64,000 nucleotides of DNA from Herbaspirillum sp. alder98 (GTDB lineage Bacteria; Pseudomonadota; Gammaproteobacteria; Burkholderiales; Burkholderiaceae_D). A model generated the notes under the pieces. That model was not told the origin of the DNA, did not search any database, and worked only from the letters and a program-made list of their open reading frames with translations. Location: positions 62,001-126,000 of the forward strand of contig NZ_JAIUCY010000007.1 of the NCBI RefSeq assembly GCF_020179755.1, read 5' to 3'. The position numbers were made by a program, and so were the translations under genes. Below, one piece after another: positions 35,298 through 58,604 of the stretch (its first letter is position 1; each line of letters opens with the position of its first letter).

Positions 35298-35376
35298 TGA
35301 GGGTACTCGACGAAATGCTTCGCCAAATCACTTAACGAACATCATTTCATTGAATCACCCGTGGGCTCAGGAAGTT

Positions 35377-35425
35377 CATGGGTTCTTTACACAAGAGGTA
35401 ATCCAATGTCCGAACGAAAGAACAC
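35377..35425 (+). repeat. Direct-repeat translation leader, copy 2
   Basis: CATGGGTTCTTTACACAAGAG-GTAATCCAATG-TCCGAACGAAAG, a diverged copy of 35010-35056 with a 2-nt indel before the ATG at 35406. Confidence 0.75.
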
Positions 35426-35657
35426 TACACCTGCGCCGGCTCCAGAGTCGTCCAAGCAGCGGTCTCATCTGTGGCCTCGGAAAACTGTTAGGCAGTTTCA
35501 TGCTCGGTTGATGCTGAAGCACTTTAGCAAACAGCTTTCTCATGGGGAGCTGAACCGACTCAAGGCAGTTTTGGCGGAGTTCGAGGGTGCCAGAGGGATG
35601 GTGGCACGGTTGCCTCCGCCTGATTTCCCTCGTGCGAAGAAGGGACGGAAGCCATGA
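35406..35657 (+). CDS. Second small basic protein in the tns operon
   Basis: 83 aa starting MSERKNTTPAPAPESSKQRS, preceded by AAGAGG and overlapping the tnsC start by 4 bp (ATGA), so it is translationally coupled to tnsC. The start resembles that of the preceding small protein (MPERKSTKGSA) and their upstream DNA is duplicated, but the central part (LMLKHFSKQLSHGELNRLKAVLAEFEGARGMVARLPPPDF) has diverged. Strongly basic and without a recognised domain. Confidence 0.65.
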   Translation: MSERKNTTPAPAPESSKQRSHLWPRKTVRQFHARLMLKHFSKQLSHGELNRLKAVLAEFEGARGMVARLPPPDFPRAKKGRKP

Positions 35658-36868: not shown

Positions 36869-36980
36869 TAGCAACAGCAGCCATCGCTTCTTTGGCTGAA
36901 ATCCTCAAATCGGCGACATCTCGCATTCCTGCTCCCAGACGCCGAGGTGTCGCCAAAAAAATAATACGAGATAAAAATAA

Positions 36981-39803: not shown

Positions 39804-39804
39804 A

Positions 39805-39858
39805 CTGAGAAAACAGAAAAAAGCCGACACCGTTGTCCAGTGTCGGCTTTTTTCTCAG
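39805..39858. terminator. Strong bidirectional terminator closing the transposition operon
   Basis: AAAAAAGCCGACAC (39817-39830) and GTGTCGGCTTTTTT (39840-39853) form a perfect 14-bp inverted repeat with a 9-nt loop; outer CTGAGA/TCTCAG extends it. U-tracts occur on both strands, so it isolates tns transcription from the minus-strand cargo. Confidence 0.9.
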
Positions 39859-39879
39859 GCCGATTTATCAAAAGAGCTG

Positions 39880-40065
39880 TCAGAGACTGAGACCTAATTT
39901 CTTTTGACGCTCGAAAGTGATGTCAAAGACCAATCCTGCCAGTACCATCAACGACGCCATGATGTAATGAACGACCTCAAAGCCATTTGTTGCGGTCTTT
40001 ATCAGCGCGATACCAGCCGCGCCATCTTCACTCTTAAAGATATCCGAGCGAACTGATGAAGGCAT
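39880..40065 (-). CDS. Candidate small membrane protein or gene remnant
   Basis: 61 codons from ATG 40065 (MPSSVRSDIFKSEDGAAGIALIKT) with one hydrophobic segment HYIMASLMVLAGLVFDIT and a basic end ERQKKLGLSL. The reading frame is open further upstream without a clear start, and a second minus-strand frame at 40174-40353 (MVEASDNEITVGQVVDAFASAGSAKGFEACLNT) sits just before it. The two may be remnants of one gene separated by frameshift. No family was recognised; the interval 39859-40453 otherwise shows nothing. Confidence 0.3.
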   Translation of the reverse strand: MPSSVRSDIFKSEDGAAGIALIKTATNGFEVVHYIMASLMVLAGLVFDITFERQKKLGLSL

Positions 40066-40453
40066 TGCTGGCGCCACGGCCGAAAGCTGCTTCGAAGAGC
40101 AAATCCAACGCAAAGAAAAAGGAAGAGTCAAAAACAGAGGAAAACTATCCGGCGACTGGGTCGTTGTTCTGATTCAAAGCAAGTTGGTATGCAAAATAGC
40201 AGGAGGATAGACCTCGGTAGGTCGCCAGCTTTCTCGGCAAATAGCCAATGTTGTGGTGTTGAGGCATGCCTCGAACCCTTTTGCTGAGCCAGCAGAGGCA
40301 AACGCATCCACCACTTGTCCAACCGTAATTTCGTTGTCACTAGCTTCAACCATGCTTTCCCCAATTGAGGGTTGAATCTTAGCATCGCTGAAGCGGTGAC
40401 TTTGAACGTCTGCCAAACAAGCAAGAGAGCAACATCAACTGGCAACCAATATG

Positions 40454-44500: not shown

Positions 44501-44555
44501 TTGTATCCCGATTTCTTGTTCTTCTAAGCATCAAATCAGCCTTCCCGATAATTGC

Positions 44556-45287
44556 CTAGAGCCTCTCAATAGCACGTTCAAGTAGCTGGAGAAGATTCCC
44601 CTCACCATGAAGATGGAGTCCGCCGACTACAACCAATACCTTCCGCTCAGATTTACATAGCTCGTGCATCGCTCCGAGCCAATTTTCATTGCGCCCTGTG
44701 AGGGCAGCTCTGCGGAGGGAGGGTACCGTAATGATTGTCTTCTTTTGGACACGGCGAAACATGGTATCCAGGTCTCGCTTGTTCCAATCGGAGAACATGC
44801 CTTTGATGCCTTTATCGTTATCTCCGATTGAAGAAATCGCTTCATTCAGCGCCAACAGCACGTCCTCGGAAGGCACTGAGCGCATCGAATCTGCAAATTC
44901 AACTGGGGTTTCCAGATAGCGGATATCCTTCCCATCCTTGACCGCAAGGTCACGAAACTGGACGTCTATCCCATGCTTAGTTTTTGCTCCGACTTTCCCC
45001 AATTGCATAAAGACAAGCCATGCAGGTGTCCTATGCAGCTCGCCTAGCTCCGCCGGCCAATGGGCGACAAGCCACTCCCAGACATTCTTTGGCACATGGT
45101 CGGATAACGACTGCCCTTGTGGCAAAGTGAATTCATCTCCGATGGCCCCCCAATCTGTCTCGAAAACCAACTCATCGGCCCAAGCATATGCATCACGGGC
45201 CCATCTTGGCACTTCAGGTACATTCGCGGGGAAAAGATGAATCGAGCCGAGCACTCGAACTGTGGTGTTGTCGATTTGAAAGTACAT
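44556..45287 (-). CDS. Cytosolic TraB/GumN-like protein
   Basis: ATG 45287 has GGAGGGG 5 nt upstream and gives 243 aa. Family motifs are VLGSIHLFPANVPEVP near the start, LVFETDWG, GIDVQFRDLAV, the LETPVEF strand, GRNENWLGAM and VVVGGLHLHGEGNLLQLLE, matching the TraB/GumN (EreA/ChaN-like) fold with its paired GxxH/ExxE-type residues. Most bacterial GumN proteins are exported; this one lacks a signal peptide. It lies 55 bp upstream of the STAND gene on the same strand, so they are probably cotranscribed. Enzymatic activity is unknown. Confidence 0.75.
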   Translation of the reverse strand: MYFQIDNTTVRVLGSIHLFPANVPEVPRWARDAYAWADELVFETDWGAIGDEFTLPQGQSLSDHVPKNVWEWLVAHWPAELGELHRTPAWLVFMQLGKVGAKTKHGIDVQFRDLAVKDGKDIRYLETPVEFADSMRSVPSEDVLLALNEAISSIGDNDKGIKGMFSDWNKRDLDTMFRRVQKKTIITVPSLRRAALTGRNENWLGAMHELCKSERKVLVVVGGLHLHGEGNLLQLLERAIERL

Positions 45288-45406
45288 GGCCCCCTCCATT
45301 TATCTCTCAAGTATGTCACGGAGCATGCAGACATAAAATTTAGAACGACGGTTATGACCTCGTTGCAGCTGCTGAAACGGGGTCGCTCTTCTAGCTCGCG
45401 CCCGCT

Positions 45407-47221
45407 TCATTCTCCGGCTTCTGCTGCCTGCGATTGATGCTTCTCCACAAATTGCATGACCATACCCAAAAACATGGTCGTGTGAACCAACCAAAGCACT
45501 GATACCGGAGCGATATCATCGAGCCCCAATAAGCCATGCGCGAACCTATTTCTCAGATTCCAACCACGCGGGTCGACATACAAAGCCTGCAAATAAAGCT
45601 TTAGCGGCTCACCCACGGGACCTATTGAGTCCATCGTCCCGTTGGCGAACACCACGTCGCCCATATTGATGGCAACACTGGTTCCCGGAACGGCGCCGTA
45701 TGGTTTTGTCGTCGCCTTACCCACCCTGGCAGACAATTCGCGGAATGCATGTTCGATTTGCGGAATTAGAACGTGAAGTGCGGTTACATGGTCCTCATGA
45801 AGCCAGGCTTCAAAGCCATGCTGCAACAATGACAGACGGTCCTTCTCAAACAACTTGCCTCGATTTGCCCACGCAACAAAATGGCCACTCTTGAAATCGA
45901 ATTTCTTGATAGCCGCGTCAACCACCCAATTGAGCCACGGCCCTCGGAACTGCATTTCCTTTAGCGCCTCCTGGAGGAGCCGACCGCCAGGGTCATCATC
46001 CACGCCACCAATTTTCGCCGCGACCATGTTGTCTCTCACAAGCTCCTGAGTCAACATCGCAAAGAGTGGCTCATTTGTTCTCAAGTCTTGAATGCGTGCT
46101 CGCAAGCGTCCGATACGTGGCAAAAACTCCATGGTGATGTTGGCCAGAGTCTGAATGTCAGAATCTACGACATGGTTGCCGATGAACTTCTCGATTTCTT
46201 CCTTGGAAATCTCGGTTCGGGTTGTGAAAGTCCCCATTTCATCATGCGACTGCCGTATCTTCTCCTGCATCAGAATTCGCACGCGCTCTGCCTCCGCCGG
46301 CTCAGATGCCAAAACATACTGATTCAGACTGGTCTGAAGGAACGATGCTGCCAGCTGCGCCTTACCAAGCGTTGCGGCGTGCTCGAAAACCTTTGCGACC
46401 ACAATGTGTACTCGTTTGACCTCGGCCGGCTCCGACAGCTTGCCGTAGTATCGCGCCAGAGCGCCCCCAGCCATCTCGGCACCATGTGGGTTGAATTTTC
46501 CTGGCTCTACAGACGCGTTCGAAAGCAGAATCGACTCGACATCGCCAACCAATTCGGCCCTTTCCTTGTCGGTCAGCCCAGCCATCTTATTGTCCATCAG
46601 ATAGTCGAATATCTGATGCCACCAACCCATATCGCGGCGATGGAGCTCCAACAGGACAGCACGTGCTTCGGCAACGCGTGCTGAGTCACGAATTGTTGCA
46701 GCCAAGTCGATAGCACGCTTGGCGCCATTCAGACCGTCCCAAATATCCGCACCTTGCTCAAACCGGGCTGAACTGAGATACGCATCAATCGCCATTTTGC
46801 ATGTGTCGATGTTCCGCCGCCGCCCCTTCTCGACGATTGGTGTGAGCTCCCAAGCTGCATCAGCATATCGAGCCTTCATCGTCTGGTTTACGGCCTTGGC
46901 TGCCCGCTCAGACCAGTAGTCAATAGTGCCGGCCGGCAAATATGAAATATCGGGGAAATAGATAATCGCCCCGTCTTTTCCTGTAGCTGAACTACCCGGC
47001 CGAAAATAGCAGTTCCACGGATTCTCTGCCGTATTACCAACACTGATATTGAGAAGGAAAATAGCGAGGTCAACATAAGCCGCCTCCCGCAATTCTTCGT
47101 CCTCCAGTGCGTTCCGTGCCCCAGAGAGTTCGCCAATCACTGCGTAGAAATCCAGAGGCACATCAGCAACGTTAAACTTCTGGATGACGGCATCGATGGC
47201 CGGGATGGTCTTGATAGGCAT
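45407..47221 (-). CDS. DUF4209-like protein with HEPN-type RNxxxH motif
   Basis: 604 aa, mostly alpha-helical. Near residues 545-565 it has DPRGWNLRNRFAHGLLGLDDI, the conserved RNxxxHG signature of DUF4209. The same Rx4H pattern is the catalytic motif of HEPN ribonucleases, so RNase activity is a reasonable hypothesis. The first 500 residues are helical repeats without a recognised name. It is the first gene of a possible three-gene unit with the GumN-like gene (119 bp further) and the STAND gene. Confidence 0.72.
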   Translation of the reverse strand: MPIKTIPAIDAVIQKFNVADVPLDFYAVIGELSGARNALEDEELREAAYVDLAIFLLNISVGNTAENPWNCYFRPGSSATGKDGAIIYFPDISYLPAGTIDYWSERAAKAVNQTMKARYADAAWELTPIVEKGRRRNIDTCKMAIDAYLSSARFEQGADIWDGLNGAKRAIDLAATIRDSARVAEARAVLLELHRRDMGWWHQIFDYLMDNKMAGLTDKERAELVGDVESILLSNASVEPGKFNPHGAEMAGGALARYYGKLSEPAEVKRVHIVVAKVFEHAATLGKAQLAASFLQTSLNQYVLASEPAEAERVRILMQEKIRQSHDEMGTFTTRTEISKEEIEKFIGNHVVDSDIQTLANITMEFLPRIGRLRARIQDLRTNEPLFAMLTQELVRDNMVAAKIGGVDDDPGGRLLQEALKEMQFRGPWLNWVVDAAIKKFDFKSGHFVAWANRGKLFEKDRLSLLQHGFEAWLHEDHVTALHVLIPQIEHAFRELSARVGKATTKPYGAVPGTSVAINMGDVVFANGTMDSIGPVGEPLKLYLQALYVDPRGWNLRNRFAHGLLGLDDIAPVSVLWLVHTTMFLGMVMQFVEKHQSQAAEAGE

Positions 47222-47347
47222 GGCTCTGAGTTAGTAAGAAAGATGCGTCATCATTGAAGATACTCGGTCGCTGAAGTGGTGGCGCCAACGGTTTAACCGT
47301 GATATTGGGCGGCCATCTCATTCCGCATCGGCCCCAGTGGCCCAAAC

Positions 47348-47791
47348 TCACCTCCGGCAAAACGCCTCACGGAGCTTGTCCAAGTCATTGAATTTCTCCG
47401 CAGCATCAGTAAGCGCGACAAGCCCCTTAATCTCAGTACGTTTCGGGCGGTACGCATTGGCCGTCAAATAACCATAGAAGCGACCATCCCTGTCCACAAT
47501 CACCGGTGGGTCACTAGCGTACGTATTCCAAGGGGAAAGAGAGCTGTAGCTTGAGCCGTATTGGCCGTAACTATTCCAGATGCTGTCAGAGTTGTAGCCT
47601 GAACCATACGAGCCGTACTCATTGCAGACCGAACCGTTGTCGTGTTCGCTGCAGTTCAAGCAGCCCAAGAACTTGTCGTGGCTGTGCCCCCCGAAAAGAA
47701 GTAGTGCTGGCGCCTGCGCCGCAGATACCCCCATCACGGCAGCCATGATTGTGCCTGTTACGGCCTTCAAGACAAATTTGCAAGCCCCCAT
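47348..47791 (-). CDS. Exported Tyr/Gly/Ser-rich hypothetical protein
   Basis: 147 aa with a hydrophobic N-terminal segment (VTGTIMAAVMGVSAAQA) that looks like a signal peptide. The mature part has HDKFLGCLNCSEHDNGSVCN and a low-complexity stretch NEYGSYGSGYNSDSIWNSYGQ, then PPVIVDRDGRFYGYLTANAY. Similar short proteins occur as hypotheticals in proteobacteria; no function is known to me. A 126-bp gap separates it from the DUF4209 gene. Confidence 0.65.
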   Translation of the reverse strand: MGACKFVLKAVTGTIMAAVMGVSAAQAPALLLFGGHSHDKFLGCLNCSEHDNGSVCNEYGSYGSGYNSDSIWNSYGQYGSSYSSLSPWNTYASDPPVIVDRDGRFYGYLTANAYRPKRTEIKGLVALTDAAEKFNDLDKLREAFCRR

Positions 47792-47869
47792 GCATTTCCC
47801 CTTGTTTGCGTTTTCGCGAAAGCATAACGGGAATCTTGACTTAATGGAGACGACAACAGCTGGTGTAAC

Positions 47870-47900
47870 GTCCGAAAAGAAGCCGACCTAGCGGTCGGCT
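47870..47900 (-). terminator. Terminator after the 246-aa hypothetical gene
   Basis: Minus-strand stem AGCCGACC/GGTCGGCT with the 4-nt loop GCTA, followed by TCTTCTTTTC, 15 bp downstream of the stop at 47915. Confidence 0.75.
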
Positions 47901-47914
47901 CCACGTGCTTCGGA

Positions 47915-48655
47915 CTATTTCACGGCGCCTTTATCACCAAAGCCCAGCGGTTCGACTTCAAGTGAGAACAGCCTTTCCAAAACCGGCCTTTTGCAGCGGA
48001 ACGAATCCATCGCACTTTGCAGCCAAGCGCCATCTCTTCTTTCCAGCCAACTCATCGCAACGGCGTCGCACTCCTGTAGAGTCGCATAGTAAGCGATGGG
48101 GCTACCGCCCGTTCGTGGATTCAGCATCACCTCGACCGCAATTTCCGAATAGCCGATATCCCTCACTTTGACCCGAGCAAGGTCACCAGTGGTCAACTGA
48201 AACTCGAAAATATGAGACCCCATGGTCTGATGCGATGGCCAACGGTTGTCGTCAGGACGAAGCGAAAAGAGTCGACGGCGTAACGCTTCGTTGACGGCCG
48301 AAACCATCAGGTTCCGCCAGGCCTTTTGCCGCTTGGTCTTATATTCAATGTCAAACGACCGCAGACACAACGTCTCCCGCATCTCGGGGATATCAGCCGC
48401 ATCAAAGAAGAAGTCGTTCGCTACTGGATACCCCAGGGCATTGAGGCGCTTTGTTAGTCGTTCTTCATCCACGATATAGAACAGAGGGTCATTACCCTGT
48501 AGTTCTATTTCTTTGAGCAAGGCAGCGTTTGTGTTGAAGCCAAGCGCATAAGCCAGAGCTTCAGAGAGATGAGCAGATTTGCACTCATCGAACCATTTGG
48601 TCAGGTCTGTTTTGACGGCCTTAACGGCCTGGGTTGATAGCGGAATGCTCGCCAT
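47915..48655 (-). CDS. Hypothetical protein, accessory-element type
   Basis: 246 aa (MASIPLSTQAVKAVKTDLTKWF). The start DECKSAHLSEALAYALGFNTNAALLKEI resembles the N-terminal segment of uncharacterised proteins common on plasmids and integrative elements. No catalytic motif was recognised; the rest is mixed alpha/beta with several tryptophans. It stands alone with its own terminator. Confidence 0.6.
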   Translation of the reverse strand: MASIPLSTQAVKAVKTDLTKWFDECKSAHLSEALAYALGFNTNAALLKEIELQGNDPLFYIVDEERLTKRLNALGYPVANDFFFDAADIPEMRETLCLRSFDIEYKTKRQKAWRNLMVSAVNEALRRRLFSLRPDDNRWPSHQTMGSHIFEFQLTTGDLARVKVRDIGYSEIAVEVMLNPRTGGSPIAYYATLQECDAVAMSWLERRDGAWLQSAMDSFRCKRPVLERLFSLEVEPLGFGDKGAVK

Positions 48656-49108
48656 GGATACACCTCAATCGTCTATATGGCCGGCGTTCGTCGTTTAAGC
48701 ACCGACCTCGGATTGAAGGTCAGGAAATACTGAAATGCATCACCTGTTTAACTCGACGACAAGTTGGGTCCAGGTAGCCTGGAAACAAGATTAGTCATCC
48801 GTCGAGCTCGTGTCAAGCAATCCACAAAAGGCACCCGACTGCGTACTTATCCCCGTTTTGGCTGGAAAAATCTGTGGATAACTCAAGTTGTTGGCTCACC
48901 ACGCTGCTTGCTGATTGGGCGCAGGCGGGATTGCCTATTTATTGAGCACAAATGCAGAAGCCCCGACTAGCGGGGCTTCTGGTCCATCGGGTCCGATTCC
49001 TCTTACCTAGCGGTTGCTAGGCCAAGCAGCGCCTGGCGGGCAACCCCTCGAGTCGGCTGAAGGGGTCCTTTAATATAGGTTACCAAGCTGGCGTTCTTAC
49101 CGCAAACC
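48656..49108. other. Gene-poor interval with one DnaA-box match and a hairpin
   Basis: No supported gene. TGTGGATAA at 48873-48881 is the reverse complement of the consensus DnaA box, with a diverged TTATCCCCG at 48848-48856; the reading frame at 48764-48970 has no coding features. A GC-rich, multiply self-complementary stretch (CCTAGCGGTTGCTAGG) lies at 49005-49020. I see nothing else. Confidence 0.4.
48956..48980 (-). terminator. Perfect 10-bp hairpin after the HTH operon
   Basis: AGAAGCCCCG and CGGGGCTTCT are exact reverse complements around a 5-nt loop, downstream of the 49857-49109 minus-strand operon. The loop style matches the terminator at 47870-47900, but the U-run is weak. Confidence 0.5.
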
Positions 49109-49372
49109 TTAATGCAAATCGGGGGCAATACCGTCTACATGTTCCAACAGGTACCGGAGCGCTATCTCGTTGGCGACTCGGAGACTCAGCCCAGCGTAGT
49201 TCTTGGCAAGCCGGCAGGAAGCACCTACATGCAGGTCGACTAGATAGTTGCTGTTCAGCAGGCATCCAGGGCGAAAGGCCAGGTCCCTACGAATGCGCAC
49301 ATGCACCGACTCGCCCGGGTGGATGCCGGAAGGCACTGAGAACTCCTCGATTAACAGGTGGGTGCTTTGCAT
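49109..49372 (-). CDS. Small hypothetical protein overlapping the HTH gene
   Basis: 87 aa (MQSTHLLIEEFSVPSGIHPGESVHVRIRRDLAFRPG). Its start lies 22 bp inside the end of the HTH gene, suggesting coupled translation. Sequence contains NYLVDLHVGASCRLAKNYAGLSLRVANEIALRYLLEHVDG, a beta-strand then helices. The layout of a regulator gene with a small overlapping partner recalls toxin-antitoxin pairs, but no toxin family was recognised. Confidence 0.55.
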   Translation of the reverse strand: MQSTHLLIEEFSVPSGIHPGESVHVRIRRDLAFRPGCLLNSNYLVDLHVGASCRLAKNYAGLSLRVANEIALRYLLEHVDGIAPDLH

Positions 49373-49857
49373 ATCTCAAAACGAACGTGTCTTCCCGCGC
49401 GCAGCAGCATGTCCACCAGGGAATCGATGGTGAAATTTCGCGGATTCATCTTGAATATCTCGTCCACGCGTTGGGTTTTCGCGTGGAGCCTTTCCGCAGC
49501 TTGGGCGTGCGTAAGCTGATTCAGCTCTACCCAGCTCACGAGCTCGGTCATCAAACTCTCCATGACGGCCAGCTTCTTCATGAGGATTTCATCGACTTTC
49601 TCTCCGCCCTGTACAGGCTCGGTCGAGTACAGCTCCGCGCTCGGGATGGCAGTCTTCACATCCGCAATAGCGCTGCGAATTGCCTGCTCCAACGAAGTTG
49701 CACTGCGAGAGAAATCCAGAGCTATCTTCCCCGGGGTCCCTATCCCCACTAAAGCGTCTAAGCAGCCAGCCTCTCCGAGCCGCTCAACGATGTCGTTCAC
49801 ATCGCCGGCAACATCGGCCATGTCCAGGCTAAATCGAAGAGTGAATTCATGTTCCAT
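49351..49857 (-). CDS. XRE/HigA2-like DNA-binding protein with extra N-terminal domain
   Basis: ATG 49857 has GAGGA about 7 nt upstream and gives 168 aa. The N-terminal half (HEFTLRFSLDMADVAGDVNDIVERLGEAGCLDALVGIG) is a compact alpha/beta domain seen in some HTH regulators; the C-terminal half is a helix-turn-helix (VELNQLTHAQAAERLHAKTQRVDEIFKMNPRNFTIDSLVDMLL). Five 31-bp repeats lie directly upstream (49939-50085) and are natural candidates for its operators. Confidence 0.72.
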   Translation of the reverse strand: MEHEFTLRFSLDMADVAGDVNDIVERLGEAGCLDALVGIGTPGKIALDFSRSATSLEQAIRSAIADVKTAIPSAELYSTEPVQGGEKVDEILMKKLAVMESLMTELVSWVELNQLTHAQAAERLHAKTQRVDEIFKMNPRNFTIDSLVDMLLRAGRHVRFEICKAPTC

Positions 49858-49938
49858 GTCGCTTCCTCGTGGAGTCGATGAAATCAGTTTAGGCCGTCCC
49901 ACAACTGAAACAAGTTGCTCTCTAAGCAGGGCATCGTG

Positions 49939-50085
49939 TGTCCGAAGGAGGCGCCGATTTGTCCCGGCTTGTCCGAAAACTACTTCGATTTATGGTGCTT
50001 TTGTCCGAAAAGTACGTAGATTCTCAGAATCGTGTCCGAAAAGCACTTCGATTTCTCAATCCGTGTCTGAAACCACGTATGATTT
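49939..50085. repeat. Five tandem ~31-bp repeats with TGTCCGAAAA core
   Basis: Units start at 49939, 49970, 50002, 50033 and 50064, a spacing of 31, 32, 31 and 31 bp. The best copies read TGTCCGAAAACTACTTCGAT and TGTCCGAAAAGCACTTCGAT; each holds a short dyad CGAA-N6-TTCG. The outer copies are degenerate. The period equals three helical turns, which places all sites on one DNA face, as for cooperative operators or replication iterons. The flanks of this 360-bp interval (49858-50217) contain no gene. Confidence 0.85.
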
Positions 50086-50217
50086 TTTGGCGCATTATTC
50101 ATACGTGGCCATAGGGAAGAAGTGGGCCGGTATGCATTAGCGTGAAAGCCACTCACTGCATCCCCCCCTGGTGAGCCCTTGCCTGATTCAAGTCACGCAT
50201 CCTTCGTCAGCCCAAAC

Positions 50218-50997
50218 TCAACCACCGGCACGTTCCAAGACCGGAGCTTTGGCAAAATCGCGCGCAAAAGCATACTTATGGGCTTGTGAAACCAGAGACG
50301 TATTCAGTGCGGCAACGTCCATGAAGGTAAGGGTGCGGTTTGGCTCGTTTGCTATCAACCAGATTGAAGGTGATACCGGTATGCCCATTCCTTCGCTGAA
50401 GCTATCTGGGACGATGAACTCGCCCTCTTGCGCCCGCCATATTCCCCACGAAGGAACCTCACTACGCCGGCGGTACATCCGCCGGCCGTACATATGAATG
50501 CCGGCAATCACGCGGCCAGACATTTTCCCGTCAGGGCCAACAAACGAAACATAGTTGCTTTCCAACTGCTCTTGCTGGTCAATAGTCAAGTTGTTCGCAG
50601 TTGTGCCCGGGAACGTTACGTCTTCAAGCGGGGTGATATGAGCCTTGTACCGCTCATTCATAAGGTCCCAAAAATCCACTGCCACCATGTTCATTGATGC
50701 GTCCAGCTCTTGCACCTCGCCAGAGACTACTTGGTCGGCCAATTTCGCAAAGTCATCTTCAACCCCTTTGCCATCCAGTTTTTCTGCTTTCTGGTCCCAC
50801 GCACGATATGCGCAAAAGATTTCGTGTTTGGTACTGACTCGAAAAGGGTTCGGATTGCTAATGAGTATCACATGAACAAAATCAGCAACAGCAAACCTTT
50901 CCAGCCCTTTCTTCGGAAAGATATGCTGGTTCTTCGTCAGACCGTGGGGGTTCCCTTTCTGTACCGGCGCCTGCTTCTTGCGAGATTGGCTAGTCAT
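50218..50997 (-). CDS. DUF4238-like hypothetical protein
   Basis: ATG 50997 (MTSQSRKKQAPVQKGNPHGLTKNQHIFPKKGLERFAV) gives 259 aa; ATG 51048 is an alternative start adding 17 residues. The NQHIFPKK motif near the start resembles the N/H-x-P-K signature of DUF4238. A later block MYGRRMYRRRSEVPSWGIWRAQEGEFIVPDSF is distinctive. Function unknown; DUF4238 proteins are frequent in mobile and defence regions. It is divergent from the XRE gene at 51303 across a dyad-rich region. Confidence 0.6.
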   Translation of the reverse strand: MTSQSRKKQAPVQKGNPHGLTKNQHIFPKKGLERFAVADFVHVILISNPNPFRVSTKHEIFCAYRAWDQKAEKLDGKGVEDDFAKLADQVVSGEVQELDASMNMVAVDFWDLMNERYKAHITPLEDVTFPGTTANNLTIDQQEQLESNYVSFVGPDGKMSGRVIAGIHMYGRRMYRRRSEVPSWGIWRAQEGEFIVPDSFSEGMGIPVSPSIWLIANEPNRTLTFMDVAALNTSLVSQAHKYAFARDFAKAPVLERAGG

Positions 50998-51088
50998 GGT
51001 GTCGAAATTGTCATGGCAATCCTGATATTGGAACAGATTTCGTCTCATACCCGAGATTTCTCTCGACGCAGGTGCACCTCCCTGTACC

Positions 51089-51149
51089 CGCTATACCCAA
51101 TTATCTGAATACAGATAATTATCCGAACTCGGTATAACGCGGTATAGCG
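51089..51149. promoter_or_regulatory. Nested inverted repeats in a divergent promoter region
   Basis: Inner dyad: AATTATCTG (51099-51107) and CAGATAATT (51112-51120), perfect 9-bp arms. Outer dyad: CGCTATACC (51089-51097) and GGTATAGCG (51141-51149), also perfect, with a partial direct copy GGTATAACG at 51131-51139. It lies between the divergent DUF4238-like (start 50997) and XRE (start 51303) genes, so it is a probable operator for the XRE protein. The remaining part of 50998-51302 shows no gene. Confidence 0.7.
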
Positions 51150-51302
51150 CTGCCCCCAACCTAGCATTCAGCAGCGAGCCTCCTACAATAGGCTCGAGAG
51201 AAGGGGAATGGCGGTGGAGCATCGGCGCCATTATTCCCACTTACGAGACCCAATTGCCTTGGCGCCGCCATACAGCGTCATTAATCACTAAAGGTGGGAA
51301 TT

Positions 51303-51647
51303 ATGGGAAGGATGATAAAGACTGCGGAAGAAGAGAGTCATCCGCACGCATCGAGCATGGAGGCGTTGGGTCGAATACTGCGGCACCGCCGAACGAGCGG
51401 CGGCATCAAACTGATTGACGCCGCAGACCAACTCCGCATTTCCAAGAGTACGCTCTCTAGATTGGAAAACGGGAAGTCGACGAACATCGAATTGCTGTTC
51501 ACCGTGCTTGAAGGATTAGGCCTGAATCTCCTTGTGACCGACAAGGCGGAAACCAGGGAAGCGCTCGAGGCCGTCCAACTCTGCCGTGATGCGGATGAAG
51601 ATGTGAAGCTTGCCCGCGCTCACGGCAAGACATGGCCATTAAAGTAG
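51303..51647 (+). CDS. XRE-family HTH regulator (HipB-like)
   Basis: ATG 51303 follows AGGTGGGA and gives 114 aa. The HTH is at about residues 20-75 (LGRILRHRRTSGGIKLIDAADQLRISKSTLSRLENGKSTNIELLFTVLEGLGLNL). Such proteins are often antitoxins, but no HipA-like or other toxin gene follows. The nested dyads 150-210 bp upstream are candidate operators. Confidence 0.8.
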   Translation: MGRMIKTAEEESHPHASSMEALGRILRHRRTSGGIKLIDAADQLRISKSTLSRLENGKSTNIELLFTVLEGLGLNLLVTDKAETREALEAVQLCRDADEDVKLARAHGKTWPLK

Positions 51648-51671
51648 GATATTTCGATTAAATCCTACTTT
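51641..51671. promoter_or_regulatory. Perfect 10-bp dyad between two XRE genes
   Basis: AAAGTAGGAT (51641-51650) and ATCCTACTTT (51662-51671) with an 11-nt spacer. It overlaps the stop codon of the first XRE gene and lies 37 bp before the second, so it may be an operator or a weak terminator. Confidence 0.65.
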
Positions 51672-51707
51672 GTTGCGCATCACTGAACTGAGATTCCAGA
51701 GACATAT

Positions 51708-52016
51708 ATGCGAAATCTAGGAGACATCGCCACTCTCATGCGCGATGCAATGAAAAAGCAGAAGGTAACGCAGCAGGACCTGCGGGAACGTGCCGGCATT
51801 GCCAGAAGGACGCTGACCGGAGTTCTTAGCGGGGAATCGGATTACAAGGTCACCACCTTGATGGCGGTACTCGACCGCCTGGGCTACGAGATGGCCATCG
51901 TGCCCAAAGCGGCCGTGCACGCACTTCCAACGGAGTGGGAGCCCACTGAGCCGGCGGTCAAGACGAAAGTGCAGATTGCGATTGAAAGACTCGCATCACA
52001 AAAAAATACCTCTTAG
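51708..52016 (+). CDS. XRE-family HTH protein
   Basis: 102 aa from ATG 51708. HTH at residues 5-60 (IATLMRDAMKKQKVTQQDLRERAGIARRTLTGVLSGESDYKVTTLMAVLDRLGYEM), followed by a short basic tail. It converges on the end of the SMC-like gene with a 19-bp gap. The SD is weak. It is either an orphan antitoxin-like regulator or controls the adjacent XRE gene via the dyad at 51641-51671. Confidence 0.75.
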   Translation: MRNLGDIATLMRDAMKKQKVTQQDLRERAGIARRTLTGVLSGESDYKVTTLMAVLDRLGYEMAIVPKAAVHALPTEWEPTEPAVKTKVQIAIERLASQKNTS

Positions 52017-52035
52017 CAAATCTAACTCTCTGAAC

Positions 52036-55000
52036 TTATCGCCCTAGTTCGAGCAACTTGAACTCGTCACCAAGAAAGGCAAACTTATGCATGAACAGCC
52101 CTGCAATCTTCGCGTCGGCGGTCGCGAAGAATATTTGCCTATCAGAGCTCAAAACCAAATTCCGAAGGTAGTCCAAGAATGACAATGCATTCAAATCGTC
52201 AACCTGAGAAATCGGGTCATCTAACATAATCACCTTCGGACCATTAGTTACCATCGCATTCATAGCTAGAAACATCGATAAAGCGTAGGCCGCACGTTGC
52301 CCAGTGCTAATCTCGTTGAGAGTTACGGGCTTGTTGTCGTCTCGCCGAACCAAAGGAGCAGCGGCATCGTCAGCGATACGATATTCAGCTGGAATATGGA
52401 TGCGATTAAAAACAGTTCCTGCCACTTTATGAGTGGCCTTTATAACGGCTGCAGTTGAGTTCTCCAGCGAATCACGAGCAATAATAGGTTCAAGACCATC
52501 ACGAGCAATTTTAAGTCTTTGAATCGCTTGTTCGACCCCATCTAACGATGCTTCATGGTTACTTCTATCTCGGAGCAAATCAGATATCGCATCCATATAC
52601 TTTTTGTCTCGCTCGAATAGACTAATAGTATTTTTCGCTGAAAGAACGGCTGAACTAATGGTGGCCAACGTCATCTTCAAATCTGAATCCTGACTTATTG
52701 CAATCTCAGAAAATACTTCTTCAATCGATGCCATTGCCAGGATAAGTAACGTAATTCGTTCCTTCAAATTACCGGCAAGGCCGTTGGCTGGCGAATTAGT
52801 AGTAAGCCCGGCTGACTCAAAATGCTTTTGAATTTGTTTTCTTTTTAGGGCACTTATTTCATCAAGCTCAGACAATTCTTTTTCAATATCTTCACTCATT
52901 TTTTGGGCGCGCAATCGAGCAGCTCGCAAATCGAGCTGCTGCGACTCATCCAAAATACGTCCATCAATTGGCAGGCATAGCTCGGTTAGTCTCTCCACAG
53001 TTACGCCTAGTTCTCCAAGAGATGCGAGCACGGTGTTTATATCAAAGTTTTCCGCCAGAAGCTTAGTCCTTTTCACACTAAGTCTATTGGCCTCTTCAAC
53101 AGTTTGCGTAACGGTCACTTTTGAAGTATCGACTTCACGAGCCAGACAGAACGAACGCAAGGAATTCAATAGCTCTAGTCTCTCGACTGCATTGTTAAAA
53201 GATTCGCGCTCAGCTTCGACCTTTTGAGCTGTGGCACGTAAGTCCTCCTCCCCAAAGAAAGTCACATCCAAGCGCATCCTCTCAGCAAGCTCTCCATAAG
53301 CAAAATTCGTTCTACAAAGCGGGCATTGGTCATCACTATGCTGATGCTCAAGTACGAAGGACGCTGCTTCGAACAATCGCGAAATTTCTTGCTGAAGTCG
53401 TGACTTAGTCTTACTCAGGGTATCGAGTGAACCTTGGAATTCTGCCAAACTCAATTGATGATGGTTACACTGCTCTTCGACTTCCGCTATGGCCTGCTTG
53501 ATAGAAAGAGAATTGAAAGTGCTTATGCTAAGAGTCTTTAGGTCTCCACGCGGTAGCCTGCTAAAGGCCAAAGAGTCCTCTGCAAAAGCTTTCTCATTCT
53601 CCGCCAAACTGTTGCGCAGATTAACCAATTCATCCGCCGACTTTAAGTCAATTTTGTCAATTTCTTGAACACGGTTGTGCGCGCCAGCATATTCAACAAC
53701 CAGTAATTTCGCCATCTCATAGTTCGCGCGCTCATCATCGAGAAGTTCGTCTATCACTTTGCTAATAGGGGTCAATCTTTCATACTCATCTCTTATAGCA
53801 GTCTGAGTTACCGAAGATTGCATCCACTCGAGCTGCCTGATAATTCCTAAATTGCCGGCAACGCGCACAAGGTCATCAACATCACCTTCCTTCAGGTCAT
53901 CGATGGATTTTGGAGATTTTTTCCAACCGAGCTTATTTAATTCCTCCTCCAATATGCTGAAAGCCGCATCAGACTCTACAGGAGCATCAGTAGCGGATGA
54001 TATTTGCTCTTCCACGACTTTCAGGTTCGCACGTATGGTTTCAGCTGTAAGTTTCTGTACGCGAAGCTCTTCAATAATGTCCCGGTTAACTTGGTTTATA
54101 CGCTTCCAAACCTCGGTTACTTCGTGTCCACTCAACAAGTCTGCGAGACTTTCGGCGTCGCTTTTTATGCCGCGACGTTGAATTCCACTTAGCAAAGAGA
54201 GCTCTGCGGCGGCGTCGGTATTTAGAAAATTGAATCGCGCAAACTGATTTTTTAGGAAATTTTCGTTGCCTTTGTCATTTGTCCCATACCAGCGTCGCTG
54301 GCGAGTTCTAAAGTCGTTGGAGTCTTGAACACTACTTGTAACAACGACCTCTCCCGATTTTAGGCGCGCTTCCACTGTGATATCTTGCGCAAGCTTCGAC
54401 CGACGGTTTTGACCGCAAAAAAGAAATTCTAGGCCCTCCATAAACGACGTCTTGCCCACACCGTTTGCGCCGAAGAGCAAATTCACTCTCCCTAGGTCAT
54501 CAAAATCTACTGATGCCAAGTTTCGTCCGAATTTCTGGAGATTTAAGGCAGATAAATGACTTGAAACTAGCGCCGAAGCTGTCAACAGACCTGTGTCTCG
54601 TTTGCTACGTGAGGTTGTTCTCGTCTGCCCGCCAGAAACTGTCTTGACGATTTCGCTAATGGGACGGTCAGTTGATATGACTTCAGAAAGGCCAAGCAGG
54701 TCTAATTTTTCCGTCCACGTTTCTAGGACGTTTCCAACTTGAATCTGACGCGTACTGGTGGCGACGGAATCCAACTCTGCCAAAACTTCATCGAAATCCT
54801 CTTCCGAGATAATGAATTTCCGTGCATAGCTTCTGTTTGCTTCAATAGCTCTCTTCTTTATATTGAAGCCGTCACTATTTTTCACATCACCATTAACGAC
54901 AAAATACAAATAGTTATTCCAACGAAGGTCAGAGGCATTACGTTCGTCGAAATAGCTGTGACCGACCACTCGGTCAAGATACTTGCTCAGCTCTCCCTCA

Positions 55001-55158
55001 GTGTGAGGCAGACTATTTGTCACATCAAAAACGTATGCAGCAAACTCAAGTTGATTACGCTTTCTGACGCCGCGATAGATACCTTCTGACACGTCTGTGA
55101 CGCCTTGGAATTTGACACCGATTTTCTCTCTAGCTACCTGAAAGTCCATGGTTCTCAT
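52036..55158 (-). CDS. SMC/Rad50-like (AAA15) ATPase with zinc-hook-type CPLC, defence candidate
   Basis: 1040 aa. Residues 1-140 form a separate N-terminal domain with no name known to me. The ATPase starts with VNLLFGANGVGKTSFMEGLEFLF (Walker A, 230-237), continues in long coiled coils (about 330-900) interrupted by DQCPLCRTNF near residue 611 (a zinc-hook-like CxxC), and ends with signature STGQRAAYALSMFLAMN (about 945-960) and Walker B KVIMLDDPISQVDD (about 974-987). Such ATPases power Lamassu-, Septu- and Gabija-type systems. The ATGA overlap with the nitrilase-like gene implies a two-subunit system. Confidence 0.85.
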   Translation of the reverse strand: MRTMDFQVAREKIGVKFQGVTDVSEGIYRGVRKRNQLEFAAYVFDVTNSLPHTEGELSKYLDRVVGHSYFDERNASDLRWNNYLYFVVNGDVKNSDGFNIKKRAIEANRSYARKFIISEEDFDEVLAELDSVATSTRQIQVGNVLETWTEKLDLLGLSEVISTDRPISEIVKTVSGGQTRTTSRSKRDTGLLTASALVSSHLSALNLQKFGRNLASVDFDDLGRVNLLFGANGVGKTSFMEGLEFLFCGQNRRSKLAQDITVEARLKSGEVVVTSSVQDSNDFRTRQRRWYGTNDKGNENFLKNQFARFNFLNTDAAAELSLLSGIQRRGIKSDAESLADLLSGHEVTEVWKRINQVNRDIIEELRVQKLTAETIRANLKVVEEQISSATDAPVESDAAFSILEEELNKLGWKKSPKSIDDLKEGDVDDLVRVAGNLGIIRQLEWMQSSVTQTAIRDEYERLTPISKVIDELLDDERANYEMAKLLVVEYAGAHNRVQEIDKIDLKSADELVNLRNSLAENEKAFAEDSLAFSRLPRGDLKTLSISTFNSLSIKQAIAEVEEQCNHHQLSLAEFQGSLDTLSKTKSRLQQEISRLFEAASFVLEHQHSDDQCPLCRTNFAYGELAERMRLDVTFFGEEDLRATAQKVEAERESFNNAVERLELLNSLRSFCLAREVDTSKVTVTQTVEEANRLSVKRTKLLAENFDINTVLASLGELGVTVERLTELCLPIDGRILDESQQLDLRAARLRAQKMSEDIEKELSELDEISALKRKQIQKHFESAGLTTNSPANGLAGNLKERITLLILAMASIEEVFSEIAISQDSDLKMTLATISSAVLSAKNTISLFERDKKYMDAISDLLRDRSNHEASLDGVEQAIQRLKIARDGLEPIIARDSLENSTAAVIKATHKVAGTVFNRIHIPAEYRIADDAAAPLVRRDDNKPVTLNEISTGQRAAYALSMFLAMNAMVTNGPKVIMLDDPISQVDDLNALSFLDYLRNLVLSSDRQIFFATADAKIAGLFMHKFAFLGDEFKLLELGR

Positions 55159-56987
55159 TGTTGTTCTCTAGTAAGTGGCGACGCTAGTGGATTTGTGAAA
55201 TCGGGCGTAGAGGAGTTGAGCGGCTGCGCGTAAGATAAATAATGCGGATTTCTATATGCGACCGTTTTTGTATCATCTACATATAGAAGGCAATATCGCG
55301 ACGCGGCTCTAGCCTGGTGCTGACGGACTAAACTTCGCATGTCCAAATCTGACAGAACACGGTCCGGCTCAGCGATTTCCCCCGCCACAATCTTTCGCAT
55401 TTTTTGGTCGACTATATCCAAAATCGACGTATCGAGAACCTCTCCCAAATACACGACGGTAGCTAAGGTGCTATCACTTGCTTTGATGTTCCGGTGCTGA
55501 TGCGGACTTGGCGGAGAAACGAATTCAAAACCTTCGTTCAAGAACTGCAGTTCCACTGGCCACTCGTAGTTTCTATTTTGTAGACCGGCTAAGACTATTG
55601 CAGCCTTCAGTCTATTCATTCTGAACATTCTGCCTTCAGGGTCCTGAGCGAAGGTAACCCTATTGATGAATTCGTCCTCTCCAATACGAATCGAATCTAT
55701 GTTCTGAATCGCGTGCCACTCCGAGCCGCTATCCAATTCCCCTGCAGTAACAGCTAGTGTCCGCTCTAACCCCAAGGGAGAATCCTCATGAAGTTTGACG
55801 ATATCTGCATATCGGTCCGCCGCGGCCCCTAGAGAAGCCTTGAAGCCATCGTTCGGTAAATCGCGGGGATGAATCGCTTCAGTCCAGGTATTGTTGGACC
55901 ATACGAAAGTCTTAAGTGCTTTAGGTCCGGTTCTCCTAGACCTAGCCTTAGGAACAGCATGATGAAAAACTTTCGTCGCCTGAAAGAAGAACACGCGCTC
56001 ACGGTAGTCAAATTGCAATACGTGCGTTCTAAAGGGTTGATGTCGTGTGTAGTAGACGCCAGCACCATGGTTTGCCTTTACTGTCCGCTCAGAGGCATCG
56101 AACTCTGGGGCACGGGTGTACCAGCATGAGCCCCCAATATTCCTCCAGGACGTAAATGCCCCATCCACACGGTCCGTCGACTGAATATTCTCTGCCCAAT
56201 TCAAACAAAGGAGCTCAGTATCGGCATCTAGTTCATACAAATACTGGCGATATCTCTTGTAAGAAATATGCCTAGGATTGTTATTTAGCTGAATATGTAA
56301 AAGGAGAAGTCGGTCATGAACAGCGGCGCAAATCGCCTGATTGAAGTCAAACACATCTGAGCAAATTAGCGTGATTAGACTAACTTCATTGGCACGTCCA
56401 AATCGATACACATAACGTCCGCGCATCATGCCGATTGCTTCGGTGTTAGCTGCGTCTCCAGATGGAGCGGTCTTGTATTGAACAATCATCACGAGCGCGG
56501 GCTGAGCATTTACAACTGCGCGTGTTTGAAAGAGATAGACAAGCGGATTTCGATAGCTCTGGGTAGTCAGCTCTTCAACGGACGATTCGTCATCAATAAT
56601 GATGACCTGTCCGTTTAGAGCTTCACGTATCTCATTGAGCTGACCGAATCTCAAACTTTCACATCCAAGTACCCAGAGCTGGCCGTTTCCGGGAACGACA
56701 CCGTTATCAATGGCTCTCTTCAGCGCATTCCAGGGCATGCTGTATTCCGGACACACCACCAAGTCGGGACTCGGTGCCAATGCAGAAGCATGACGTAAAA
56801 ACTCATACATCTTCCGCTCTGACTCATTGTGGCGCGCGTTCCCGATGAAATCGGGCTTTATGAGAATTTTCCCCTCAGGCTGAATAAGCAATGCCGTGTA
56901 CTGTGCTTCAGTCGCTTGCAGTACATTCAAATTTGGATGCTCTAAGCCCTGCGCAGCTAGTATTTCTGAAATGGAAACAACGTCCAA
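55155..56987 (-). CDS. Nitrilase-superfamily-like protein paired with the SMC-like ATPase
   Basis: 610 aa; TTG 56987 follows a purine-rich GGGGGG and no better start is nearby. The N-terminal about 300 residues carry the nitrilase Glu-Lys-Cys pattern: Glu81 in LVVCPEYSMPW, Lys172 in VMIVQYKTAPSGD and Cys209 in LITLICSDVFDF. The C-terminal half (from about 330) is unrecognised, with DRVLSDLDMRSLVRQHQARAASRYCLLYVDD near the end. It is the first gene of the operon and overlaps the ATPase gene by 4 bp. Nitrilases hydrolyse C-N bonds; as a partner of an SMC-like sensor it could act as a metabolite-depleting effector, which is an inference. Confidence 0.78.
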   Translation of the reverse strand: MDVVSISEILAAQGLEHPNLNVLQATEAQYTALLIQPEGKILIKPDFIGNARHNESERKMYEFLRHASALAPSPDLVVCPEYSMPWNALKRAIDNGVVPGNGQLWVLGCESLRFGQLNEIREALNGQVIIIDDESSVEELTTQSYRNPLVYLFQTRAVVNAQPALVMIVQYKTAPSGDAANTEAIGMMRGRYVYRFGRANEVSLITLICSDVFDFNQAICAAVHDRLLLLHIQLNNNPRHISYKRYRQYLYELDADTELLCLNWAENIQSTDRVDGAFTSWRNIGGSCWYTRAPEFDASERTVKANHGAGVYYTRHQPFRTHVLQFDYRERVFFFQATKVFHHAVPKARSRRTGPKALKTFVWSNNTWTEAIHPRDLPNDGFKASLGAAADRYADIVKLHEDSPLGLERTLAVTAGELDSGSEWHAIQNIDSIRIGEDEFINRVTFAQDPEGRMFRMNRLKAAIVLAGLQNRNYEWPVELQFLNEGFEFVSPPSPHQHRNIKASDSTLATVVYLGEVLDTSILDIVDQKMRKIVAGEIAEPDRVLSDLDMRSLVRQHQARAASRYCLLYVDDTKTVAYRNPHYLSYAQPLNSSTPDFTNPLASPLTREQQ

Positions 56988-57397
56988 TCTTGCCCCCCAC
57001 CAATATCACTGTTTGGTTGCCACTTTTGCTCAATGATACATCGGACAAACAGTAATGTTGACAGGCCCCGCTACTCGTCGCTCATTACAACTTGCAGCAG
57101 AAAATAGAACTACAAGGCCCACTATATTGAGCACTAATGAGAGATTTAATAGATAAAGCTCATGAATCTGAAGCCTAAGTTGGCAACCTAGGGTGAAGTC
57201 TGTAGTCTGTACGGAACTCGGGAAACGCCTCCGGGCACGCTCGACTCGCTAACAGCTGGCAGCAAACGAAAGTGGAAGCATTGGATGCAACTACGACTAG
57301 ACATCGCGTAAGTAAGCCATCCTTGAAATAAAAGAAAACACCCTCTTCAGGGCAAAATATGAAAGTATAGCTATACGTATAATGTTAATTCGTATAT
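56988..57397. other. A+T-rich divergent region before the nitrilase-like and XRE genes
   Basis: 410 bp with no supported gene. It should hold the promoter of the 56987-52036 operon. At its right end lies the operator/promoter described separately at 57365-57383. Confidence 0.5.
57365..57383 (+). promoter_or_regulatory. Palindromic operator overlapping a perfect -10 box
   Basis: GTATAGCTATAC (57365-57376) is a perfect 12-bp palindrome, overlapped by the palindrome TATACGTATA (57372-57381) and a consensus -10 TATAAT (57378-57383). The XRE start codon lies 15 bp downstream. The layout indicates negative autoregulation. Confidence 0.7.
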
Positions 57398-57796
57398 ATG
57401 CCTCCGCGTCCCCGCGCCATCTGGCAGCTCCCTCCGTCGACCCAATCTGCCCTCGAAAAGCTTGGCGCAGACCTCGCAGTCGCCCGCCTGCGCAGGAAGG
57501 AGTCGCTCAAGGTCTGGGCCGGTCGTATGGGCGTCTCAATCCCCACCCTCCAGCGCCTCGAGGCCGGCGACCCAACAGTGAGCGTCGGCATCCTAGCCAC
57601 CGCACTGTGGCTCCTCCGGCGAGACCATGAACTGGCGCAGTTGGCGAACCCTGAACAAGACCTGGGCGCCATTGAGCGAGACGTCCGTAAGGCGATGGAG
57701 CTAGGTAAAAAGCGGGCGAAAGCCTCGGCTGAGGCACGTGCTGGGCGTCAGCGGAAAGATGAAACAACGGATACTGGCGCCGACGACGGAAAATAA
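57398..57796 (+). CDS. XRE-family HTH regulator (antitoxin-like)
   Basis: 132 aa from ATG 57398. The HTH spans about residues 22-75 (LGADLAVARLRRKESLKVWAGRMGVSIPTLQRLEAGDPTVSVGILATALWLL), in the style of HipB-like antitoxins; the tail is highly charged (GKKRAKASAEARAGRQRKDE). With only about 15 nt between the -10 box and the ATG, the transcript may be near leaderless. It is followed by a phosphatase-like gene rather than a HipA toxin. Confidence 0.82.
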   Translation: MPPRPRAIWQLPPSTQSALEKLGADLAVARLRRKESLKVWAGRMGVSIPTLQRLEAGDPTVSVGILATALWLLRRDHELAQLANPEQDLGAIERDVRKAMELGKKRAKASAEARAGRQRKDETTDTGADDGK

Positions 57797-57846
57797 GGGT
57801 AGCCAGGACTTGACCGGCACCCACTCCGTTGGAGTAGATTCATCTG

Positions 57847-58347
57847 ATGAACACCAGAGTCAAAGATGTCGTCGCCAAGCTATACCGTCCACCTCCACAA
57901 GGCAGACGGATATTCGCGCTGGGTAGAGGTGACGCTGAACGGATACCTCTGATACGCGGTGTGGCCATGATTTCCATCACGGCGCCAGAAAAAGGCCCAG
58001 CCCAGCTACCGGAGTACGAGCACCTGTTGAGGCTCAGCTTCGCAGACGTCGATTTCCTTGGCGAGCTCTCCGCGCGGGCAGCTGAAAAGCTTCCGGACGC
58101 CATGACCAAGGAGGATGCGGAGGGGATTCTTGAGTTTGTGAAAGCGCTTCCAGAGACTGTACACACCTTAGTGGTCCACTGCGAAGGCGGATTTTCCAGG
58201 TCGGCCGGCGTTGTAAAGGCATTGAAGGAACTGTACGGGTACGAGGCTGAGGATTCCAGGCTCGTGCAGGCCAATCCCAGTGTGATGAAAACGCTCCTTG
58301 CAACAGCAAAGAGCGTCGAAAAGAAGAAAGAACGCAAGAACGGTTAA
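57847..58347 (+). CDS. Dual-specificity/tyrosine phosphatase-like protein (CX5R)
   Basis: 166 aa. The P-loop LVVHCEGGFSRSAGVVKAL matches the HCX5R(S/T) catalytic motif of cysteine phosphatases, and an upstream Asp-containing loop (LSFADVDF) could supply the general acid. The C-terminus is lysine-rich. It lies 50 bp after the XRE gene on the same strand and is the last gene before the transposon right end. Substrate is unknown; a phosphoprotein or phosphonucleotide role in defence is speculative. Confidence 0.78.
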   Translation: MNTRVKDVVAKLYRPPPQGRRIFALGRGDAERIPLIRGVAMISITAPEKGPAQLPEYEHLLRLSFADVDFLGELSARAAEKLPDAMTKEDAEGILEFVKALPETVHTLVVHCEGGFSRSAGVVKALKELYGYEAEDSRLVQANPSVMKTLLATAKSVEKKKERKNG

Positions 58348-58579
58348 GCAGTGAACGAATTGCGCCGAAAAACATAAAAAAGCCACCTGGGGATGCACCT
58401 CACATCTCGCTATACGCAACGTAGGGCAATACAGCGAACCAAGCGCCGAATAGCCGAAAAATCGGGCTATTCGGACACAATTCGCAGTTCAGTACAAAAA
58501 TCAGCGCAACTGTGACGTTTTCGGCCGATTTTTTATTAAGCTCACGCCCCTTAAGTCTGTGATTTATTTCGTTTTAGGC
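58348..58579. other. Right-end non-coding region of the transposon
   Basis: No gene. A perfect 10-bp stem CCGAATAGCC/GGCTATTCGG (58446-58474) may terminate phosphatase transcription. The stretch 58530-58579 is A+T-rich and bears a TnsB-like subterminal repeat. Confidence 0.6.
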
Positions 58580-58590
58580 GTTAGCTTAAT
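58535..58590. repeat. Subterminal inverted repeat of the right end
   Basis: ATTAAGCTCACGCC (58535-58548) and GGCGTTAGCTTAAT (58577-58590) are inverted copies matching at 13 of 14 positions with a 28-nt spacer. The outer arm is part of the terminal repeat, so the inner arm is probably a second transposase site in opposite orientation. Confidence 0.75.
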
Positions 58591-58604
58591 TTTGGTGATG
58601 TCCA
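58580..58604 (-). repeat. Right terminal inverted repeat
   Basis: Read on the minus strand it begins TGGACATCACCAAAATTAAG and continues CTAAC, matching the left end at 21 of 25 positions. An in-frame ATG within it (58598) could initiate translation of the comM 3' fragment. Confidence 0.92.

Follow-up and report, generated by a model that had tools for sequence, protein, structure and literature searches.

The DNA analysed here, referred to as the window, is a stretch of 64,000 nucleotides from Herbaspirillum sp. alder98 (contig NZ_JAIUCY010000007.1, positions 62,001 to 126,000 of the forward strand). Its minus strand carries a two-gene operon in which the gene for a predicted nitrilase-fold effector lies upstream and the gene for a Rad50-like ATPase lies downstream (Table 1). 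Both open reading frames (ORFs), together with the 4-bp ATGA at which they overlap, were found at the coordinates that an initial annotation, made from the sequence alone, had given for them. The TTG start of the effector gene is supported by the GGTGGGGGG stretch immediately upstream and by the same start column in most relatives. Among 25 homologous pairs, 18 overlap by exactly 4 bp, and the remaining seven span -11 to 86. Promoter and terminator scans gave nothing beyond the level produced by shuffles.

Sequence-only annotation left the effector without a name. No PADLOC (version 2.0.0) or NCBIfam model matched it at E ≤ 0.1, its single Pfam match was at chance level (E 0.21) and a search of PDB chains by sequence returned nothing convincing, so structure prediction was needed. 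Prediction combined with a structural search assigned a nitrilase fold to the 610-aa protein with confidence, and the structural neighbours included glutamine-dependent NAD synthetase, amidase and carbamoylase enzymes. Residues E81, K172 and C209, which the initial annotation had singled out as nitrilase-type, were invariant in 37/37 aligned sequences (the window's protein is included in this and the following counts). In a more diverse set reaching down to 22% identity, the same three residues and E183 were invariant in all 25 sequences; E183 stands at the usual fourth catalytic position of nitrilases. The effector has structural features of the nitrilase superfamily, namely the predicted fold, the predicted catalytic Glu-Lys-Cys and a second Glu, and shares the fold (mainly over residues 26-349) and the E-K-E-C set with Nit2, formamidase and glutamine-dependent NAD synthetase. 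Unlike these enzymes, it bears an extra C-terminal region of 260 residues and has no match to Pfam CN_hydrolase, a model that reached only one of the 25 family effectors (E 0.033).

The Walker A, CPLC hook, GQ signature and DD Walker B that had been noted in the partner protein are all present, and G230-x-NG-x-GKT, C612-P-x-C615, S951-x-GQR and D980-D981 were invariant in 24/24 aligned ATPases. LmuB models matched all 24, the window's ATPase giving E 7.4e-32 with PDLC03859. In a Foldseek search, the solved Lamassu LmuB chains 9hqx, 9hqu, 9uxh and 9ux7 were listed beneath the top Rad50/SMC matches; among the matches listed in a second structure search (50 rows) there were Rad50-like chains and no Lamassu chain. 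The extra N-terminal segment of about 200 residues that the initial annotation had pointed out is real, but it is not unexplained, as it corresponds to the middle component MComp1 (PF20289). A six-frame search gave it 31.3 bits with this model, over the cut-off, and hhalign against nine stand-alone middle components gave a probability of 93.7 (E 1.9e-7); MComp1 matched 16 of the 24 aligned ATPases at E ≤ 0.01. A Pfam scan detected no nuclease family in the ATPase and no further effector domain in either protein.

Table 1. Coordinates of the gene pair, its predicted domains and residues, and the carrier element, in window positions.
Feature	Position	Strand	Basis
LmuA-like effector gene, 610 aa, TTG start	55155..56987	-	ORF; relatives: 554 proteins at E ≤ 0.001 among 7996 candidates scored
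LmuB-like Rad50/SMC ATPase gene, 1040 aa, fused middle component	52036..55158	-	ORF
ATGA stop/start overlap of effector and ATPase genes, 4 bp	55155..55158	-	sequence
Nitrilase-fold domain (predicted), residues 26-349	55941..56912	-	structure prediction, structural neighbours
E81, predicted catalytic Glu	56745..56747	-	invariant 25/25
K172, predicted catalytic Lys	56472..56474	-	invariant 25/25
E183, predicted second Glu of catalytic tetrad	56439..56441	-	invariant 25/25; role inferred from position after Lys
C209, predicted nucleophile	56361..56363	-	invariant 25/25
C-terminal part of the effector, residues 350-610, putative docking domain (role inferred)	55158..55940	-	folded to about residue 585 (structure prediction)
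N-terminal middle-component domain, MComp1/LmuC type, residues 1-190	54589..55158	-	Pfam match at residues 56-129 (54772-54993); hhalign
Walker A, residues 230-238 (GANGVGKTS)	54445..54471	-	alignment
Zinc-hook motif, residues 612-615 (CPLC)	53314..53325	-	C-P-x-C in 24/24 aligned ATPases
ABC signature, residues 951-955 (STGQR)	52294..52308	-	alignment
Walker B, residues 976-981 (VIMLDD)	52216..52233	-	DD in 24/24 aligned ATPases
Tn7-like element, pair as cargo	31046..58604	.	5-bp duplication, terminal inverted repeat, TnsB/TnsC/TniQ matches

Scanning one genome per species recovered 28 homologous loci, and the ATPase gene followed the effector gene directly in 25 of them; within these 25, the effector of L018 is split over two frames and the ATPase frames of L016 and L028 are short (949 and 615 aa). 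The order was also kept in both matching plasmid records. On pPNAP01 the genes of the pair (WP_011798038.1/WP_011798039.1) lie 14 bp apart; on the haloarchaeal phalar01, at 23% identity, they overlap by 4 bp and the effector retains E, K, E and C. Pairwise distances of effectors and ATPases were correlated with r=0.968 over 23 pairs, a value that 0 of 5000 permutations reached and that shared descent explains in part. No third gene was conserved: the 227 flank ORFs with a length of 110 aa or more yielded 13 clusters, each of two loci only, and nine of these fall between the near-copies L026 and L027. Because the order is fixed in 25 of the 28 loci and alike on plasmids, the two proteins diverge in step and no third gene recurs, the effector and ATPase genes are one unit.

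According to record titles, the hosts include Pseudomonadota, Nitrospirota, Planctomycetota, Verrucomicrobia, clostridia, Bacteroidetes genera and others, with many metagenome-assembled genomes (MAGs); archaeal hosts are a Methanosarcinaceae MAG, Methanolobus and a Bathyarchaeota MAG. The pairs from three MAGs assigned to Methanosarcinaceae, Actinomycetota and Bathyarchaeota (L008, L011, L012) are 73-82% identical in both proteins, a sign of cross-domain transfer or of contigs binned to the wrong genome. The lineage is rare, the window's own genome being the only one with the pair among 369 genomes of the class. No relative was encoded on 83 pattern-matched stretches of viral contigs, and none was found in phage records.

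The surroundings of the homologous loci were rich in defence genes. The nearest flank genes (78 genes at 22 loci) were matched by models of 132 PADLOC families at E ≤ 1e-20, with type I and III restriction-modification, BREX, AbiE, PrrC and PD-T7-5 among the 25 families shown. At the same threshold, 78 background genes from arbitrary stretches of 16 other genomes matched one family, mad3, in two genes; in this comparison family counts exceed gene counts, several models matching one gene, and the background consists of Pseudomonadota genomes other than those of the loci. On pPNAP01, annotated Hachiman HamA and helicase genes lie upstream of the pair, two genes off.

By sequence comparison, the pair is a Lamassu-type system and not a categorically new kind. 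Like three-gene Lamassu, DdmABC and ABC-3C systems, it combines an LmuB-like, Rad50-like ATPase, a middle component and, first in the operon, an effector with a predicted N-terminal enzymatic domain. It differs from three-gene Lamassu, which has a separate middle-component gene and Cap4, Mrr or other effectors, in the fusion, the nitrilase and the DD Walker B. The closest parallel came from the same genus. At locus L058, the effector matches PADLOC's LmuA model PDLC03850 (E 1.9e-276) and the ATPase its LmuB model PDLC03861 (E 0). The LmuA label of PDLC03850 is PADLOC's, and its description as nitrilase-type is a reading made in this analysis: E76, K163 and C205 of the L058 effector align with E81, K172 and C209 of the window's. 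We take Lamassu-Amidase to be the subtype name of this PDLC03850 plus PDLC03861 system. As in the window, its effector gene lies upstream of, and overlaps, an LmuB gene with a fused MComp1 (28.4 bits in L058); the L058 ATPase, of 1206 aa, is longer than the window's 1040-aa protein by about 170 aa. Since L058 has both a nitrilase effector and a fused middle component, we rejected the idea that either is unprecedented.

The window's effector itself gave no match to PDLC03850 at E ≤ 0.1, and it was not assigned to that lineage. At E ≤ 0.01 PDLC03850 matched 6 of the 25 effectors of the window's lineage (best 4.1e-9), and hhalign related the two lineages with a probability of 95.8 (E 6.7e-9) over the nitrilase core only, the C-terminal regions remaining unaligned. 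Because the direct match is missing but the profiles are related, the window's lineage is a deep sister of the PDLC03850 lineage rather than a member of it, one that PADLOC leaves unlabelled at the window's effector. With 6 of 25 effectors labelled LmuA, and the window's not among them, many loci of the lineage would go unreported by PADLOC 2.0.0.

Published nitrilase effectors bear on the same comparison. A review names a "C-N hydrolase" among Lamassu effectors and describes some Lamassu systems as lacking LmuC (PMC10586767); apart from that phrase, no nitrilase Lamassu was found in the open-licence literature, which is no proof of absence. DRT1 uses a nitrilase domain as its effector (PMC13275509), with conserved catalytic residues as in the window's effector, and the model RTasNitrilase matched one of the 25 effectors (E 0.0089). 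DRT1 differs in its reverse transcriptase, a family that neither protein of the pair matched at E ≤ 1; the likely sensor here is the SMC-like ATPase. The initial annotation had read the pair as a Lamassu-like SMC ATPase joined to a nitrilase effector outside the established defence types, and had named genomic association, overlap with defence islands and a predicted nitrilase fold as checks. The pairing stands, with LmuB models in 24/24 ATPases and both genes together in 25/28 loci; the association was near-perfect (2/2 plasmids and the distance correlation included), the flanks were defence-rich (132 families against one) and the fold was that of a nitrilase. The novelty of the effector type is not supported, given the review's "C-N hydrolase", PDLC03850 and the DRT1 domain.

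We compared fused and stand-alone middle components in the phylum. MComp1 was detected at E ≤ 0.001 in 10 of 398 genomes, nine of them over the cut-off. In eight of the ten it is a stand-alone frame of 185-228 aa, each adjoining an ATPase matched by the family's profile, and the other two are the window's own genome and G701. Eleven loci were read, from nine of the MComp1 genomes plus G028 and G036. The nitrilase profile A3 (E ≤ 1) matched the effector only in G701 (L056) and G028 (L058), and the ATPase genes of these two loci bear MComp1 near the N-terminus. In this small sample the fused middle component and the nitrilase effector co-occur, and fusion is the exception. At L056 (5782-10755) the PDLC03850-type Lamassu ATPase gene is interrupted, pieces of 344 aa and 405 aa flanking a 781-aa ORF that has no Pfam match.

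All in all, we consider it probable that the pair is a Lamassu (ABC-3C) module predicted for defence, with a protein of predicted nitrilase fold as the likely effector and a Rad50-like ATPase, which bears the fused middle component, as the likely DNA sensor. Sequence and prediction show the folds, the invariance of catalytic and ATPase residues, the fused middle component, the constant pairing of the genes and their defence-rich setting. Several results weigh against this view. Three of the 28 loci have no detected partner: in L029 the record ends inside the effector, in L007 the ATPase start is present and breaks off near the contig end, and L020 has a truncated nitrilase and no ATPase that could be found. 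With hmmscan the window's ATPase scored 26.7 bits for MComp1, just short of the 27.3-bit cut-off, and at E ≤ 0.01 MComp1 failed to match 8 of the 24 aligned ATPases. The profile made from the family's middle component (A4) matched only the window's genome among the 398 of the phylum, missing the stand-alone components found by PF20289, and it did not match the haloarchaeal phalar01 ATPase, whose Walker B is without DDP. No Pfam ABC-3C CTD model matched effector residues 350-610, although the region is predicted to be folded. Finally, the DD Walker B of the window's ATPase is unlike the E-to-Q form that the review describes (PMC10586767).

By analogy with published systems, zinc hook and heads would join two ATPase molecules into a dimer, which would bind DNA ends or hairpins from replicating phage or plasmid, the structures reported to be sensed by Lamassu (PMC12904381). 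In the resting state the ATPase would keep the nitrilase bound, by way of the effector's C-terminal region and its own fused middle component, and so block self-assembly. DNA engagement would free the nitrilase to oligomerise, as nitrilase activity requires, and the freed enzyme could then hydrolyse an amide or nitrile bond of an essential small molecule and stop the infected cell (abortive infection). An ATPase that sequesters the nitrilase until it senses DNA is the simplest transfer from reports on oligomerisation in Lamassu and DRT1: in Cap4-type Lamassu, LmuA is set free and assembles into a homotetramer (PMC12409362, addendum), fused effectors in Lamassu are activated by oligomerisation (PMC12799240), and nitrilases require homo-oligomerisation, that of DRT1 working from a tetramer (PMC13275509). 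Taken as a whole, this would be Lamassu killing without DNA cutting, in which a Rad50-like sensor, equipped with its own middle component, holds a nitrilase monomeric until foreign DNA frees its assembly and an essential amide metabolite is destroyed; we put it forward tentatively, as possible rather than probable.

The best-surviving alternative keeps the Lamassu-type module and changes the chemistry, so that the nitrilase generates a toxin or a signal, or modifies an amide of a protein or nucleic acid, instead of depleting a metabolite. The fold leaves the chemistry unfixed, because its structural neighbours span NAD synthetase, amidase and carbamoylase, and the DRT1 authors raise toxin generation as an alternative for their own nitrilase (PMC13275509); we regard this alternative as rather unlikely. 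A reading in which the nitrilase fold is without catalysis and serves as a scaffold or ligand sensor, with the ATPase as the executor on DNA, is quite improbable. The Rad50-like ATPase head, and the lack of a nuclease or other effector domain elsewhere in the pair, would fit such an arrangement, but a scaffold does not need four catalytic residues that stay invariant in 25/25 sequences and persist in the haloarchaeal relative, and the ATPase that would have to act on DNA contains no nuclease family. Least probable of all is a DNA-repair or housekeeping operon of Rad50 plus a salvage amidase, as the ATPase's resemblance to Rad50 and the name "exonuclease SbcC" of relatives in public records might suggest, since the pair is rare and patchy, lacks a third gene that recurs among the flank ORFs, for example one for Mre11 (which was not searched by name), sits among defence-rich neighbours and is cargo of a Tn7-like element.

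If this reading of a Lamassu that kills without DNA cutting is true, then nitrilases, with DRT1 and the PDLC03850 lineage counted in, would be a general class of prokaryotic immune effectors gated by oligomerisation, common to bacteria and archaea and spread by Tn7-like elements and plasmids. The DRT1 authors call nitrilases uncommon in antiphage defence and leave the substrate of theirs open (PMC13275509). A compact two-gene system, apart from DRT1's reverse transcriptase, would make both the substrate of an immune nitrilase and its gating by oligomerisation addressable by one cysteine mutant, and the fusion would offer a direct handle on the role of the Lamassu middle component.

The carrier of the pair is a 27.6-kb Tn7-like element flanked by a 5-bp duplication, ATCAG, at 31041-31045 and 58605-58609. 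Its terminal inverted repeats match at 10/12 bp; of about 1500 end pairs scanned, nearby offsets also reached 10-11/12, and only the chosen one has matching 5-bp flanks. The element encodes proteins resembling Tn6677 TnsB (PDB, E 4e-24) and VchTnsC (E 8e-28), and a TniQ (PF06527, E 1e-16). A TnsA-like protein (32071-32886) and a second, TniQ/TnsD-like one (36981-38252) were recognised by reading only and have no database match; the Pfam TnsA model found nothing in this genome and gave no match in control genomes either, and the genome search with PDLC03850 likewise ran without a positive control. GC content is low, 0.45-0.54, from about 40 to 58 kb, compared with 0.57-0.65 up to 32 kb and again beyond 58 kb.

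The cargo of the element is a defence island. On the minus strand, the neighbours at 45407-47221 match the PADLOC candidate PDC-S39 (E 8e-32) and DUF4209/DUF7380, and the gene at 49351-49902, which is followed by a small overlapping ORF (the two together span 49109-49902), matches PDC-M06B (E 8e-28) and has a C-terminal helix-turn-helix (HTH). A 1348-aa protein (40454-44500, minus strand) has HTH, Mrr-type endonuclease and STAND-like NTPase matches, all under curated cut-offs, and is likely a further defence gene of the same cargo. Two small Xre/HipB-like HTH genes (51294-52016, plus strand) are convergent with the pair; the 117-aa one did not recur at other loci, and the 102-aa one is under the 110-aa limit. 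In divergent orientation upstream of the pair (57398-58347, plus strand), an HTH gene is followed by a gene for a 166-aa protein in which an HCxxGxxRS-type phosphatase signature can be read.

The gene split by the element is presumably comM, judging from its motifs. Its upstream part was matched in 13/13 genomes of a sample of the genus, and among the 12 relatives the gene was intact in eight and in two pieces in four. In G007, G008 and G011 of the genus, the presumed comM is likewise split, by about 4-29 kb, and it may be an insertion hotspot in the genus.

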